A stretch of DNA of 44,818 bases from a bacterium (GTDB lineage Bacteria > Vulcanimicrobiota > Vulcanimicrobiia > Vulcanimicrobiales > SCRA01), in contig SCRA01000042.1 of assembly GCA_004297985.1 (NCBI GenBank), forward strand, positions 1 through 44,818, written 5' to 3'. The first letter of the stretch is position 1. Every line of letters begins with the position of its first letter. Made by a program: the position numbers and the translations under genes. The notes below the pieces were generated by a model. The model worked only from the letters and a program-made list of their open reading frames with translations. It was not told the DNA's origin and did not search any database. Positions 15,348-20,820 of this stretch are shown here, in pieces.

Positions 15348-16339
15348 TGCAGGCTACCCTCTCGCTCGATCTCGACAACCAGTGGTCCTACATGAAGACG
15401 CACGGCGACGCTGGCTGGGAGGCGTTTCCATCGTACCTGGACGTGGTCGTCCCGCGCGTGCTCGCCTTCCTCGCGCAACGGAGCCTGCGCATCACCGTCT
15501 TCGTGGTGGGGCAGGATGCCGAGTTGCCGCGCAATATGCCCATGCTGCGCTCCGTCGCCGAGGCCGGCCACGAGATCGGCAACCACTCGTTCCACCACGA
15601 ACCGTGGCTCCATCTGCATGGCGAGGCCGAGATCGACGGCGAACTGGCTAGAGCCGAGAGCGCCATCGAGCGCGCTACAGGAGTCCACCCGTTCGGCTTT
15701 CGCGGGCCGGGTTTCACACGCTCGGAGACGATCTTGCGGGTGCTGGCACGGCGCGGCTACCGCTACGACGCCTCGACGTTGGCGACGTGGATCGGGCCGC
15801 TGGCGCGCGCCTACTACTTTCGTACGGCACACCTGGATGCCCAGGCGATGCGCGAGCGTGAGGCGCTCTTCGGCCGCCTGACGGACGCATTCCAGCCCAA
15901 CGGCTGCCGGTGGGTGCGCACCACGGCCGGGGAGATCGCCGTGCTTCCCGTGACCACGATGCCGCTGCTGCGCGTGCCGATCCACGTCAGCTACGTGCTC
16001 TACCTCGCGGCCGTCTCACCGGCCGCGGCGCGCGCCTACTTCCGTGCCGCGCTCACGCTCTGTCGCCTTACGGGAACGGAGCCTTCGATCTTGCTTCATC
16101 CGCTCGACTTCCTCGGCGCGGAAGACTGTCCGGAGCTGGCATTCTTCCCGGCGATGCAGATGGGCGCGAAGGCCAAGATCGCCGTCGTCTCGCAAGCCTG
16201 CGAGGCACTCTCCTCCGCCTTCGACATCCGCCCGCTCCTCGAGTACGTGCGCGAGCGCGAAGCGCCGTCCTCCGCTATGCAGGCTGACCGATGCCCGCGG
16301 GGATCCGGTTCGCCATCGTGCGCAGATCGGCATCCGTGA
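15344..16339 (+). CDS. polysaccharide deacetylase (NodB homology) family protein
   Basis: This 331-residue protein has the family's metal-binding block GNHSFHHEPW (HxxxH type) and the third motif FRGPGF followed by ARRGYRYDAS. The first motif is SLDLDNQW rather than TFDDG, as in the polysaccharide-deacetylase subfamily found in O-antigen-like clusters. It may remove an N-acetyl group from a glycan. The last 65 bp overlap the 3' end of leuA on the other strand. The ATG at 15344 overlaps the previous stop as ATGA. Confidence 0.83.
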   Translation: MMQATLSLDLDNQWSYMKTHGDAGWEAFPSYLDVVVPRVLAFLAQRSLRITVFVVGQDAELPRNMPMLRSVAEAGHEIGNHSFHHEPWLHLHGEAEIDGELARAESAIERATGVHPFGFRGPGFTRSETILRVLARRGYRYDASTLATWIGPLARAYYFRTAHLDAQAMREREALFGRLTDAFQPNGCRWVRTTAGEIAVLPVTTMPLLRVPIHVSYVLYLAAVSPAAARAYFRAALTLCRLTGTEPSILLHPLDFLGAEDCPELAFFPAMQMGAKAKIAVVSQACEALSSAFDIRPLLEYVREREAPSSAMQADRCPRGSGSPSCADRHP

Positions 16340-17441
16340 TCTCGCGTTTGGTGTTCGCCATCTCGAGGAACGACTGGTAGAAGCGGTCGAGTTCCGGCTT
16401 CTCGAAGGCGAAGCCCAGTCGCTCCAAGCGCACGCGGATCGCATGGCGCCCGGACTGGCGCCCCAGGTGGAGCCGCGCGGCCCGCTGGCCCAGCATCTCC
16501 GCGGGAAGCACCTCGTAGGTGGAGCGGTGCTTGAGCACACCGTCCTGGTGGATACCGGATTCGTGGGCGAAGGCGTTGGCGCCGACGACGGCCTTGTGTT
16601 TCTGCACGGGCATGTGTGTCGCGCGGGCTACCATGCGCGAGAGCGCTGGAATGGCAGCCATGTCGAAGTGGACATCCACGCCGTAGACGTCCTGGCGCAC
16701 CCGCATCGCCGCCAGGGTCTCTTCGAGCGCGCAATTGCCGGCGCGCTCGCCGATGCCGTTCACCGTGCATTCGATCTGCCGCGCGCCCGCACGTACGGCG
16801 GCAAGCGTGTTGGCCACCGCCAGGCCTAGGTCGTCGTGGCAGTGCACGGAGAAGATGGCGCGCTCGCTCCCCTGTACCCGTGCGCGTAAAAGCGCGATCA
16901 GCGCGGCGTACTCGTGCGGTTGCGTGTAGCCCACGGTGTCGGGGACGTTGAGCGTCGTGGCGCCGGCGTCGAGCGCCGTCTGAAAGATCTCGACGAGAAA
17001 GTCATGATCGCTGCGGGTAGCGTCCTCGGCGGAGAACTCCACGTCGGCGCAGAGCGAGCGCGCGGTGCGCACGGAGCTCTCGACGGCGGCCAGCACCTGC
17101 CGGGGGGTCATGCGGAGCTTGTGCTCCATGTGGATGGGGCTGGTGGCGATGAACGTATGAATGCGCGGCGCTCGAGCGCGGCGGATCGACTCCCAGGCGG
17201 CGTGGATATCGCCCTCGACGGTGCGGGCGAGGGCGGCAACGCTGGCCCGCGTCACATGCGCTGCGATCTCGGCCACCGACTCCGCGACCGCGGGAGAGGC
17301 CGCGGAGAAGCCGGCCTCGATCACGTCGACGCCGGCACGATCGAGGCCGCGAGCGATACGAAGGCGGTCGGCGGCGCGCATGGCGGCCCCCGGAGACTGC
17401 TCCCCGTCGCGCAGCGTGGTGTCGAAGACACGAACCTCCAT
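16275..17441 (-). CDS. leuA: 2-isopropylmalate synthase lacking the C-terminal regulatory domain
   Basis: This DRE-TIM metallolyase of 388 residues condenses acetyl-CoA with an alpha-keto acid. Motifs are [12 protein letters not shown] at the N-terminus, HCHDDLG (metal-binding His), NGIGERAGN and HESGIHQDG. Standard LeuA is about 500-560 residues with a C-terminal leucine-binding domain, which is absent here because the protein ends soon after the second subdomain. Homocitrate synthase (NifV) has the same length and is the main alternative. However, a Leu-rich leader peptide and attenuator stand upstream, and leuC and leuD are nearby, so leucine synthesis is favoured. GAGG lies upstream of the ATG, downstream of the attenuator hairpin. 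Confidence 0.85.
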
Positions 17442-17455
17442 CGATTCTACCTCGC

Positions 17456-17497
17456 AAAAATGTGAGACGCGCCCCCGCCGAAGCGGGGGCGCGTCTC
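17456..17497 (-). terminator. attenuator terminator in the leuA leader
   Basis: On the minus strand GAGACGCGCCCCCGC (17497-17483) pairs perfectly over 15 bp with GCGGGGGCGCGTCTC across a TTCG tetraloop. ACA and then TTTTT (17460-17456) follow. It lies between the leader peptide and the leuA ATG, so termination here would silence leuA. Confidence 0.85.
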
Positions 17498-17522: not shown

Positions 17523-17585
17523 TCAGCCGCTTCGTCGTAAGACGTCGTCCATAAGGGGAAGTCGGCTAAGGAGCTGCAGGTGCAT
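17523..17585 (-). CDS. leuL: leucine-rich leader peptide of the leuA attenuator
   Basis: This 20-residue frame begins MHLQLLSRLPLMDDVL and ends at TGA. Six residues are leucine, including LQLL and LPL. It has no ribosome site because the ATG is predicted only about 4 nt from the transcription start. Bases 17534-17527 (CGAAGCGG, in the last codons) are complementary to CCGCTTCG in the terminator arm and loop (17486-17479). A ribosome stalled for lack of charged Leu-tRNA would leave this segment free to disrupt the terminator. A ribosome reaching the stop codon would cover it. Confidence 0.75.
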   Translation of the reverse strand: MHLQLLSRLPLMDDVLRRSG

Positions 17586-17595
17586 CTTACCGTGG

Positions 17596-17604
17596 AGTGT
17601 AGCA
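17596..17604 (-). promoter_or_regulatory. extended -10 promoter of leuL-leuA
   Basis: TGCTACACT on the minus strand is an extended -10 element (TGnTACACT). No good -35 lies 17 bp upstream, as is common for extended -10 promoters. Ten bases separate the -10 box from the leader ATG, so the transcript should be nearly leaderless. Confidence 0.6.
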
Positions 17605-17657: not shown

Positions 17658-17686
17658 TTGACACGTCGAGTGCATCGGCGTACCAT
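17658..17686 (+). promoter_or_regulatory. promoter of ilvL-ilvBNC-leuCD
   Basis: A perfect TTGACA (17658-17663) and TACCAT (17681-17686) are spaced by 17 bp. The leader ATG comes 10 bases after the -10 box, the same geometry as on the leuA side. Confidence 0.75.
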
Positions 17687-17696
17687 GGCGACAACA

Positions 17697-17762
17697 ATGT
17701 CGTCACAGATTCTCGTCGTTAGCCTTATTCTTGTCCGCCTCGAATGGGGTCGGTGGGGATAG
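17697..17762 (+). CDS. ilvL: branched-chain amino acid leader peptide of the ilvB attenuator
   Basis: This 21-residue frame begins MSSQ. It continues ILVVSLILVRL and ends EWGRWG before TAG. Nine of the eleven middle residues are Ile, Leu or Val, the signature of an ilv-type leader peptide. There is no ribosome site, and the ATG lies about 4 nt from the predicted transcription start. A small hairpin (CTGTC/GACAG, 17766-17779) follows the stop codon directly. The last third of the frame contains the antiterminator strand. The structure predicts that stalling on scarce Ile, Leu or Val tRNA allows read-through into ilvB. Confidence 0.85.
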   Translation: MSSQILVVSLILVRLEWGRWG

Positions 17763-17820
17763 GCACTGTCTGACGACAGGATACGAAAGTAGAAGCCGCC
17801 TCGCCGACCAAGCGAGGCGG
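17735..17820 (+). promoter_or_regulatory. predicted antiterminator of the ilvB attenuator
   Basis: CCGCCTCG (17735-17742) can pair with CGAGGCGG (17813-17820), and GGTCGG (17748-17753) with CCGACC (17804-17809). The two helices are nested and exclude the terminator hairpin at 17793-17823. The 5' strand is the coding sequence of the last leader codons, so a ribosome at the stop codon would mask it. Confidence 0.7.
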
Positions 17821-17830
17821 CTTTGTTTTT
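17793..17830 (+). terminator. attenuator terminator in the ilvB leader
   Basis: AAGCCGCCTCGC (17793-17804) pairs over 12 bp with GCGAGGCGGCTT (17812-17823) across a seven-base loop. TGTTTTT follows. It lies between the leader peptide and the ilvB ribosome site. Confidence 0.9.
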
Positions 17831-17843
17831 CACTGGAGGTACT

Positions 17844-19538
17844 GTGGAGACCACCGGCTCGCGTCTGCTGCTCTCGGCCCTCGAGGCTCACGGGATCGAC
17901 GCCGTTTTCGGGTATCCCGGGGGCGCGATCATGCCGTTTTACGATGCGCTACCCCAAAGCGGGCTCACGCACTATCTCGTGCGCCACGAACAAGGGGCCG
18001 CCTTCGCCGCGGGGGCCTATGCGCGCACGACCGGGCGTCTGGGAGTCTGCGTCGCCACCAGCGGCCCGGGGGCTACGAACCTCGTGACGGGCCTGCTCGA
18101 CGCCATGATGGATAGCGCCCCGGTGCTGGCCATCACCGGTCAGGTGCGTTCGGCGCTCATGGGGACGGACGGATTTCAGGAAGCCGACGTGGTCGGCATC
18201 ACCAGCTCCTGCACCAAGCACAACGCGCTGGTGTCTCGGGCGGTGGAGATTCCCGTCGCCATCGAACGAGCGATCCGCATCGCCACCTCGGGGCGTCCGG
18301 GGCCCGTGCTCGTCGATATCACCACGGACGCGCTCAAGGAGCGTCTGACCTGGGAGGGTCCGCTGTGCCAAGCGGCGGAGCGCCCCCGCGTCTCGCAGGA
18401 TACCCATGACGTCGATCTCAAGGTACAGGCTACGGAGGCCATCGCGGCCTTGGCGCGCGCGGAGCGCCCCGTCATCATCGTCGGCGGCGGTACGCGCATC
18501 GCGAACGTGATCCAAGAGTTCCGGCGCTTCGCGGCGCTGATCGGTGCCCCGGTCGTCGCAACCATCACGGGTTTGGGAACGGCGGATCCCGGCGATTCAC
18601 GCTACCTTGGGATGTTCGGCATGCATGGCCACAAGGGGGCCAACCTCGCCGTGACGCGTGCCGACTGCATGCTCGCGCTGGGAATGCGCTTCGACGACCG
18701 CGTGACCGGGGACGTCGGCAAGTTCGGCCGGAATGCCACCATCATCCACTGCGACATCGATCCCACGGAGATCGGTAAGATCATTCCCGTGGATGTCCCC
18801 ATCGTGGGCGATCTCCACGAGACCATCGCCGCGCTCACGCAGGTGGCCGAAGTCGCGACGATGCCCTCCTACGAGTCGTGGCTGGCCGAGGTCGCGATGC
18901 TGCGGCGCCCTCTGCCGCCGGCGCGCCACGAGAACGACGAGCTCTCGGCCACCGATGTGCTCGACGCGCTCTCCGCGATGATGGAGCCGGGCACGGTCGT
19001 CACCACCGATGTCGGTCAGCATCAGATGTGGATGGCCCAACGCGTGCGTCTGGAGAGCAGCCGGGACTTTCTGACCTCGGCGGGCCTGGGCGCCATGGGA
19101 TTCGGCCTCCCCGCAGCGGTGGGTGCCCAGGTGGCGCGTCCTAACGATCCGGTGATTGCCGTCGTGGGAGACGGCGGATTCCAGATGACGATGCACGAGT
19201 TGGCAACGATTCGCCGCTACGAGCTTCCCGTCAAGATCGTAGTGATCGACAACCGGCATCTCGGTATGGTGCGCCAATGGCAAGAGCTGTTCTACGAACG
19301 TCGTATCGTGGCCACCGATCTCTACGACAACCCCGAGTTCTGCACGTTGGCTTCGGCTTACGGCATACGCTCCGCACGCGTCGAGCGCGCGGAGGACCTC
19401 CATCGTGCGCTGAGCGAGATGCTGGAGTCCGACAGCGCCTACCTGCTGCATTGCGCCTGCTTCCCGACGGAAAATTGCTTCCCGATGGTTCCCGCAGGCC
19501 GGCACATCGACGAGATGCTGGAGAGAACACCCGCATGA
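17844..19538 (+). CDS. ilvB: acetolactate synthase catalytic subunit
   Basis: This 564-residue thiamine-diphosphate enzyme makes 2-acetolactate or 2-acetohydroxybutyrate, the first common step to Val, Leu and Ile. It has [12 protein letters not shown], the active-site glutamate in [10 protein letters not shown], the FAD-region sequence in the middle and the thiamine motif GDGGFQM followed by VIDN. I chose the GTG at 17844 because GGAGG lies 5 nt before it. An in-frame TTG at 17823 lies in the terminator stem and is rejected. It is the first structural gene after the attenuator, and its stop overlaps ilvN as ATGA. Confidence 0.95.
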
Positions 19539-19749
19539 GCGAACGACTCGAACTCCCGCTGCACGACCAGCGCGCACTCGCCAAGGTGCTGACCGCGCTG
19601 ACACGCACGGGATGCACTGCCACCAGCGTACGCGCCAACTTCGGCGACAACTACTCGGCCGTCATCACCATCGAGGGCGCGCCGCTCAATCTGCGGCGCC
19701 TCACGGCCATGATTTCGCGACTCATCTCCACCCACCAAGAGGAGTACCG

Positions 19750-19753
<4 letters not shown>
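19535..19753 (+). CDS. ilvN: very short acetolactate synthase small subunit (ACT-like)
   Basis: This 72-residue protein sits where ilvN/ilvM normally is, between ilvB and ilvC, with four-base overlaps at both ends. Its pattern ([20 protein letters not shown], then VITIEG and a final helix) fits one beta-alpha-beta-beta-alpha-beta ACT unit. Typical IlvN has about 160 residues and IlvM about 87. The usual glycine-rich effector loop after the first strand (NxPGVL in other members) is replaced by HDQRALAK, so valine feedback may be weak or absent. The assignment relies mainly on position. Confidence 0.7.

Positions 19754-20820
<1,067 letters not shown>

Follow-up and report, generated by a model that had tools for sequence, protein, structure and literature searches.

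Putative leaderless leader-peptide attenuators of branched-chain amino acid synthesis in Eremiobacterota, with a back-to-back pair between ilvB and leuA

In E. coli, attenuation of ilvB by branched-chain amino acid (BCAA) leader peptides is an established mechanism. The E. coli ilvL, ivbL and leuL leaders follow the classic 1:2 / 2:3 / 3:4 logic with BCAA control codons, as does the leader described here from the window, by which we mean the whole 44,818-nucleotide stretch analysed (contig C28 of the 90-contig assembly G000). Those E. coli leaders lie at separate loci, each preceded by a 5′ UTR that carries a ribosome-binding site, whereas the leaders in the window begin very close to the promoter, with two of them divergent within one intergenic region. 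Attenuation of this kind is likewise established in Corynebacterium (PMC10272879, PMC11857589) and in mycobacteria (PMC13236596), and for Streptomyces it has been predicted (PMC1262725). In C. glutamicum, ilvBNC transcription begins a single nucleotide away from the leader start codon (PMC11857589), and this system (the ilvB-II motif) resembles the window in having an I/L/V-rich leader peptide that is leaderless or nearly so, as is probably the case in the window, and an anti-antiterminator, antiterminator and terminator before ilvB (PMC11857589, PMC10272879). The window differs in belonging to another phylum, in its leader and RNA sequence, which have no Rfam match, and in that its genus carries a second attenuator, back to back with the first, on leuA. 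The M. tuberculosis ilvB1NC leader likewise combines a BCAA-rich uORF, an intrinsic terminator and an alternative antiterminator (PMC13236596), but differs in sequence and spacing and uses LVVI only as control codons. Candidate ilvB leaders in Streptomyces and other Actinobacteria consist of short ORFs with I/L/V runs and terminators (PMC1262725); there the ORFs overlap the candidate terminators, whereas in the window the two are separate and the antiterminator is clear and covarying. Control-codon changes in a similar ilvB leader of S. coelicolor had no effect (PMC1262725), so anatomy alone is no proof of attenuation. Our full-text search of the Eremiobacterota literature found nothing on attenuation or leader peptides. 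Both the mechanism and the leaderless start are already known from Corynebacterium ilvBNC; the probable case described here is apparently the first to be reported for this phylum, and what sets it apart is the back-to-back arrangement together with the putative leaderless regulon.

The window contains leuA on the minus strand, a 402-nt intergenic region, and then ilvB, ilvC, leuC and leuD on the plus strand (Table 1). We conclude that the region upstream of ilvB is very probably a ribosome-mediated transcription attenuator of this ilvB-ilvC-leuC-leuD gene run. A first-pass annotation had placed a promoter, a 21-codon frame and a terminator with a U run at 17658-17830, and each of these is found there. 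The promoter is the only sigma-70-like site within 2 kb (0.2 expected), and a TTGAC box with a -10 element is kept upstream of every leader listed. Codons 5-13 of the leader ORF (ILVVSLILV) form a cluster of control codons, also conserved in relatives, which doubles as the 5′ side (region 1) of the default hairpin. Across the 44.8 kb this is the only ATG ORF of 10-40 codons with at least 7/10 residues I, L or V, and a terminator follows it; ten shuffles of the window produced three ORFs of that kind, none with a terminator. The intrinsic terminator lies between the leader ORF and the first gene, with a stem of 13 pairs followed by GTTTTT (-24.9 kcal/mol) and a gap of 19 nt to the ilvB start codon. 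The 146-nt leader RNA as a whole folds at -64.6 kcal/mol (z = -5.15), far more stable than its shuffles. Downstream, at 17844-20820, ilvC directly follows ilvB, with no acetolactate synthase small subunit gene between them. The encoded IlvB is 82% identical to that of locus L003 and 53-57% identical to those of other close relatives (metagenome bins).

Table 1 Positions of the attenuator features and adjoining genes in the window.
Feature	Position	Strand	Details	Evidence
leuA (2-isopropylmalate synthase)	16275..17441	-	divergent from ilvB	NF002086 571.4 bits, over cut-off
leuA attenuator terminator	17464..17497	-	15-bp stem, TTCG loop, then ACATTTTTG (T run)	
leuA leader peptide ORF	17523..17585	-	20 codons, MHLQLLSRLPLMDDVLRRSG then stop, Leu-rich, ATG 17585	conserved in G029, G030, G031
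leuA promoter	17596..17604	-	extended -10 TGCTACACT	conserved in G029, G030, G031
ilvB promoter	17658..17686	+	-35 TTGACA (17658-17663), spacer 17 nt, -10 TACCAT (17681-17686)	sequence
ilvB leader peptide ORF	17697..17762	+	21 codons, MSSQILVVSLILVRLEWGRWG then stop, ATG 17697 to TAG 17762	homologous leaders in relatives
Control codons	17709..17735	+	ATT CTC GTC GTT AGC CTT ATT CTT GTC (I5-V13)	
Default (1:2, anti-antiterminator) hairpin	17709..17783	+		fold of full leader, no-ribosome fold
Antiterminator 5′ strand (region 2)	17748..17758	+	GGTCGGTGGGG, leader codons 18-21	duplex energy, covariation
Intrinsic terminator	17792..17830	+	stem 17792-17804/17812-17824, loop CGACCAA, U run	conserved in relatives
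Antiterminator 3′ strand (region 3)	17799..17809	+	CCTCGCCGACC, equal to terminator 5′ arm + loop	duplex, masked folds, covariation
ilvB (acetolactate synthase large subunit)	17844..19538	+	GTG start, GGAGGT at 17835	TIGR00118 655.7 bits, over cut-off

The distance from the -10 box to the leader ATG is 7-13 nt in every leader listed, so the 5′ UTR would be a few nt only, with the transcription start predicted from the promoter position. The ilvB and ilvC leaders are thus probably leaderless, and if transcription of the ilvB leader begins near 17693, no Shine-Dalgarno sequence would be possible. Leaderless transcripts seem to be common in the window's genome, judging from the pattern TTGAC-N17-19-TANNNT-N5-13-ATG, which occurs 28 times there against 2 for a reversed control. 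One predicted leaderless ORF of 11 codons (MAFLGQSLEHV; L142, G000:C22:96213-96255) stands directly before a gene reading like ribosomal protein L21. Another, of 25 codons (MNLGDRVRRPSPKLAHLVLGFVGMF; L149, G000:C32:5648-5688), has a strong terminator and then an acetyltransferase-like gene behind it and is a possible further attenuator.

Competing RNA folds in the leader match the classic scheme. The pairing of 17748-17758 with 17799-17809 is the classic region 2:3 pairing; taken with a short extension (17795-17809), this duplex reaches -27.6 kcal/mol, compared with -24.9 kcal/mol for the terminator. We folded the leader with a masked ribosome, on the assumption that its front edge lies 13 nt beyond the A-site codon's first base. 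Terminator probability varied with the codon in the A site: 0.91 at codon 5, 0.00-0.08 at codons 6-9, 0.39 at codon 10 and 0.79-0.93 at codons 11-13. It was 1.00 at every position between codon 14 and the stop codon, and likewise when no ribosome was present. Before the terminator 3′ arm is transcribed, antiterminator probability was ~1.0 on all codons 5-13. In these folds the antiterminator excludes the terminator, is free under a ribosome stalled on the Ile/Leu/Val codons and is covered by one at the stop codon, and the default hairpin favours termination without translation. The RNA folding suggested by the first-pass annotation thus yields the antiterminator with a ribosome on the control codons, and the terminator with a ribosome at the end of the frame or with none. 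When the ribosome stalls on codons 11-13, the terminator prevails once more at equilibrium, and in several relatives it does so at every ribosome position, so the switch there would have to be kinetic.

The first-pass annotation had drawn the antiterminator differently, with 17735-17753 pairing with the terminator loop and 3′ arm (17804-17820). Its core, GGTCGG:CCGACC, is real; the helix that is better supported is the one with the 5′ arm and loop. A duplex with the loop and 3′ arm does exist in the window (-25.7 kcal/mol vs -27.6 for loop and 5′ arm), and a few relatives (G034, G075 and G095) score better on the 3′ arm, but the probability of this helix is ~0 in the masked-ribosome folds at every ribosome position where it can be computed. 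Moreover, a ribosome on codons 10-13 would sit over the 5′ part of 17735-17753, the 3′-arm pairing falls to -17.5 in G031 vs -29.8, and the part that covaries is the six-pair core shared by both helices. Attenuation by way of that earlier helix is therefore quite unlikely.

From the parts, their conservation and covariation, and the mutually exclusive folds, all of which were computed, we infer the transcript start, translation, stalling and amino-acid response of the following model, in which pairing to the terminator 5′ arm and loop is the switch. RNA polymerase would start near 17693 and a ribosome would initiate at the AUG, very close to the 5′ end of the transcript. Under a shortage of charged Ile-, Leu- or Val-tRNA, the ribosome would stall on codons 5-13 and break the default hairpin, so that 17748-17758 could pair with 17799-17809. 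Those latter bases are the 5′ arm and loop of the terminator; once they are taken up, no terminator would form and ilvB would be transcribed. When amino acids are plentiful, the ribosome would reach the stop codon and cover 17748-17758, so that the terminator (17792-17824) forms and transcription stops. Without translation, the default hairpin would sequester 17748-17758 and the terminator would again form. On the other strand, the divergent leuA would carry an equivalent attenuator sensing mainly leucine.

We searched 149 genomes of the phylum, 34 of which carry this ilvB. In 30 of these 34 the ilv operon begins with a BCAA-rich leader and terminator, so that relatives keep both the I/L/V-rich frame and the terminator on which the first-pass annotation had staked its reading. 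The pair lies directly before ilvB in 22 genomes (21 listed plus G108). It lies before ilvC in eight genomes of genus g38 (G125, G126, G128, G119, G121, G118, G127 and G120), where ilvC is the first gene and ilvB the second. This indicates that the device follows the operon head and not a particular gene. Among the other four genomes, no leader was found in G090 under the filter used or in the distant G139, and the loci of G124 and G091 end at contig edges.

Across the order, the leader frame, the terminator and the antiterminator that excludes it show both conservation and covariation. When the antiterminator core was aligned in 13 genomes, 93% of cells were paired and four of nine pairs had changed on both sides, a count that leans towards pairing because the segments were hand-picked and hand-aligned around the core; pairing was at most 49% when the partner strand was slid. 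The aligned variants include GGTCGG:CCGACC, GGTTCGG:CCGAACC, GGATCGG:CCGATCC and GAACCGG:CCGGTTC, among others. A permutation test served as the independent check: across 20 representatives, the duplex between a genome's own leader and terminator averaged -20.0 kcal/mol, compared with -17.2 for permuted partners, and own pairing was better than all 100,000 between-genome permutations, with kinship between genomes not removed. Leader and terminator strands covary. Geometry agrees among the same representatives: upstream pairing of the terminator 5′ arm had a mean of 0.82 with the ribosome on I/L/V codons vs 0.30 on the last five positions, a difference present in 19 of the 20 and absent in one. 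In most genomes this pairing stays high through the last codon of the I/L/V cluster and drops within 1-3 codons. The earlier reading of the locus as classic ilv attenuation is accordingly supported, both by the conserved, covarying parts and by the masked-ribosome folds.

These data also bear on simpler explanations. A constitutive terminator that merely limits ilvB transcription, with no amino-acid response, would accord with the great stability of the hairpin and its dominance at equilibrium in several relatives. The antiterminator strand, however, coevolves with the terminator, and in most genomes a ribosome stalled at the end of the I/L/V cluster would only just leave that strand uncovered; we give this explanation hardly any credence. 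Could the short ORF instead be the by-product of a riboswitch or T-box, with the RNA itself sensing a ligand or uncharged tRNA? T-boxes are found on ilvB genes elsewhere. So are ppGpp riboswitches (PMC10272879). At the Rfam gathering score, however, neither these nor any other cis-regulator matched in the window or in nine relatives; the window gave a distant tRNA only and the relatives no family, and permissive thresholds returned weak matches to unrelated families. What is conserved is an I/L/V-codon-rich frame of variable length with two competing helices and not an aptamer, which makes a sensing RNA extremely improbable. Ribosome-mediated attenuation is the reading we retain.

Codon choice in the leaders is distinctive. 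ATT makes up 84% of Ile codons, CTT 49% of Leu codons and GTT 25% of Val codons in the leaders, compared with 9%, 5% and 6%, respectively, in thirteen ORFs of the window. Rare codons would sharpen stalling, and pairing constraints and common ancestry can also contribute to this bias.

The leuA twin, an addition to what the first-pass annotation had found, shares the ilvB-leuA intergenic region on the opposite strand. Its terminator folds at -35.1 kcal/mol and its leader has z = -8.53. In folds made before the terminator 3′ arm is complete, CGAAGCGG pairs with CCGCTTCG when the ribosome is on codons 3-14 and does not when it is at the end. Because the leuA terminator always prevails at equilibrium, switching here would be kinetic. 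Family f2 has a long form of leuA, identified by visual inspection of the sequence, which lies divergently to ilvB in G095, G106, G129, G060 and G089. These long-form genes (L087, L088, L097, L106 and L111) have a Leu/Ile-containing leader (e.g., MNGNARIALAILLLSGAPQA) and a terminator, and no convincing antiterminator with the right geometry was found in these leaders.

A third attenuator was detected before ilvE in the window's genome (L167, G000:C85; also L165), with leader MYRSLAPLPVIILLSSFSRSR, terminator GAGCGGCCCCTCACCGGAGGGGCCGCTC and an antiterminator formed by CCGGTGAGG and CCTCACCGG. It has a counterpart in G030 and less clear ones in G129, G095, G106, G120 and G126. Other attenuators in the genome were sought by the promoter pattern only. 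There was no convincing leader before ilvD, and no Trp-leader attenuator with a terminator before the chorismate-binding (trpE/pabB-type) loci of the genus. The leader scan, applied to ~70 ilvB loci from other phyla, found a similar leader and hairpin only in L039, L060 and L078. L039 and L060 are Desulfobacteraceae ilvB loci with I/L/V-rich ORFs followed by similar terminators (ATCCGTTATCAG...), and represent a candidate attenuator in another phylum.

Taken together, BCAA synthesis in this order is likely governed by a regulon of separate leaderless leader-peptide attenuators on ilvB or ilvC, leuA and ilvE, two of them divergent and back to back between ilvB and leuA, also beside the long leuA of the sister family. 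The leader peptides are shorter than the genes that standard callers report, and annotations therefore probably lack the regulon. With the divergent ilvB/leuA pair, two attenuators with different amino-acid signals could be compared within one intergenic region. Attenuation in this leaderless form would also be a clear case in which to test how ribosome and RNA polymerase keep in step on a leaderless transcript. If our reading is true, Eremiobacterota would gain their first described RNA-level amino-acid regulation, and classic attenuation in its leaderless form would be placed in a phylum that has been little studied and is mostly uncultured.
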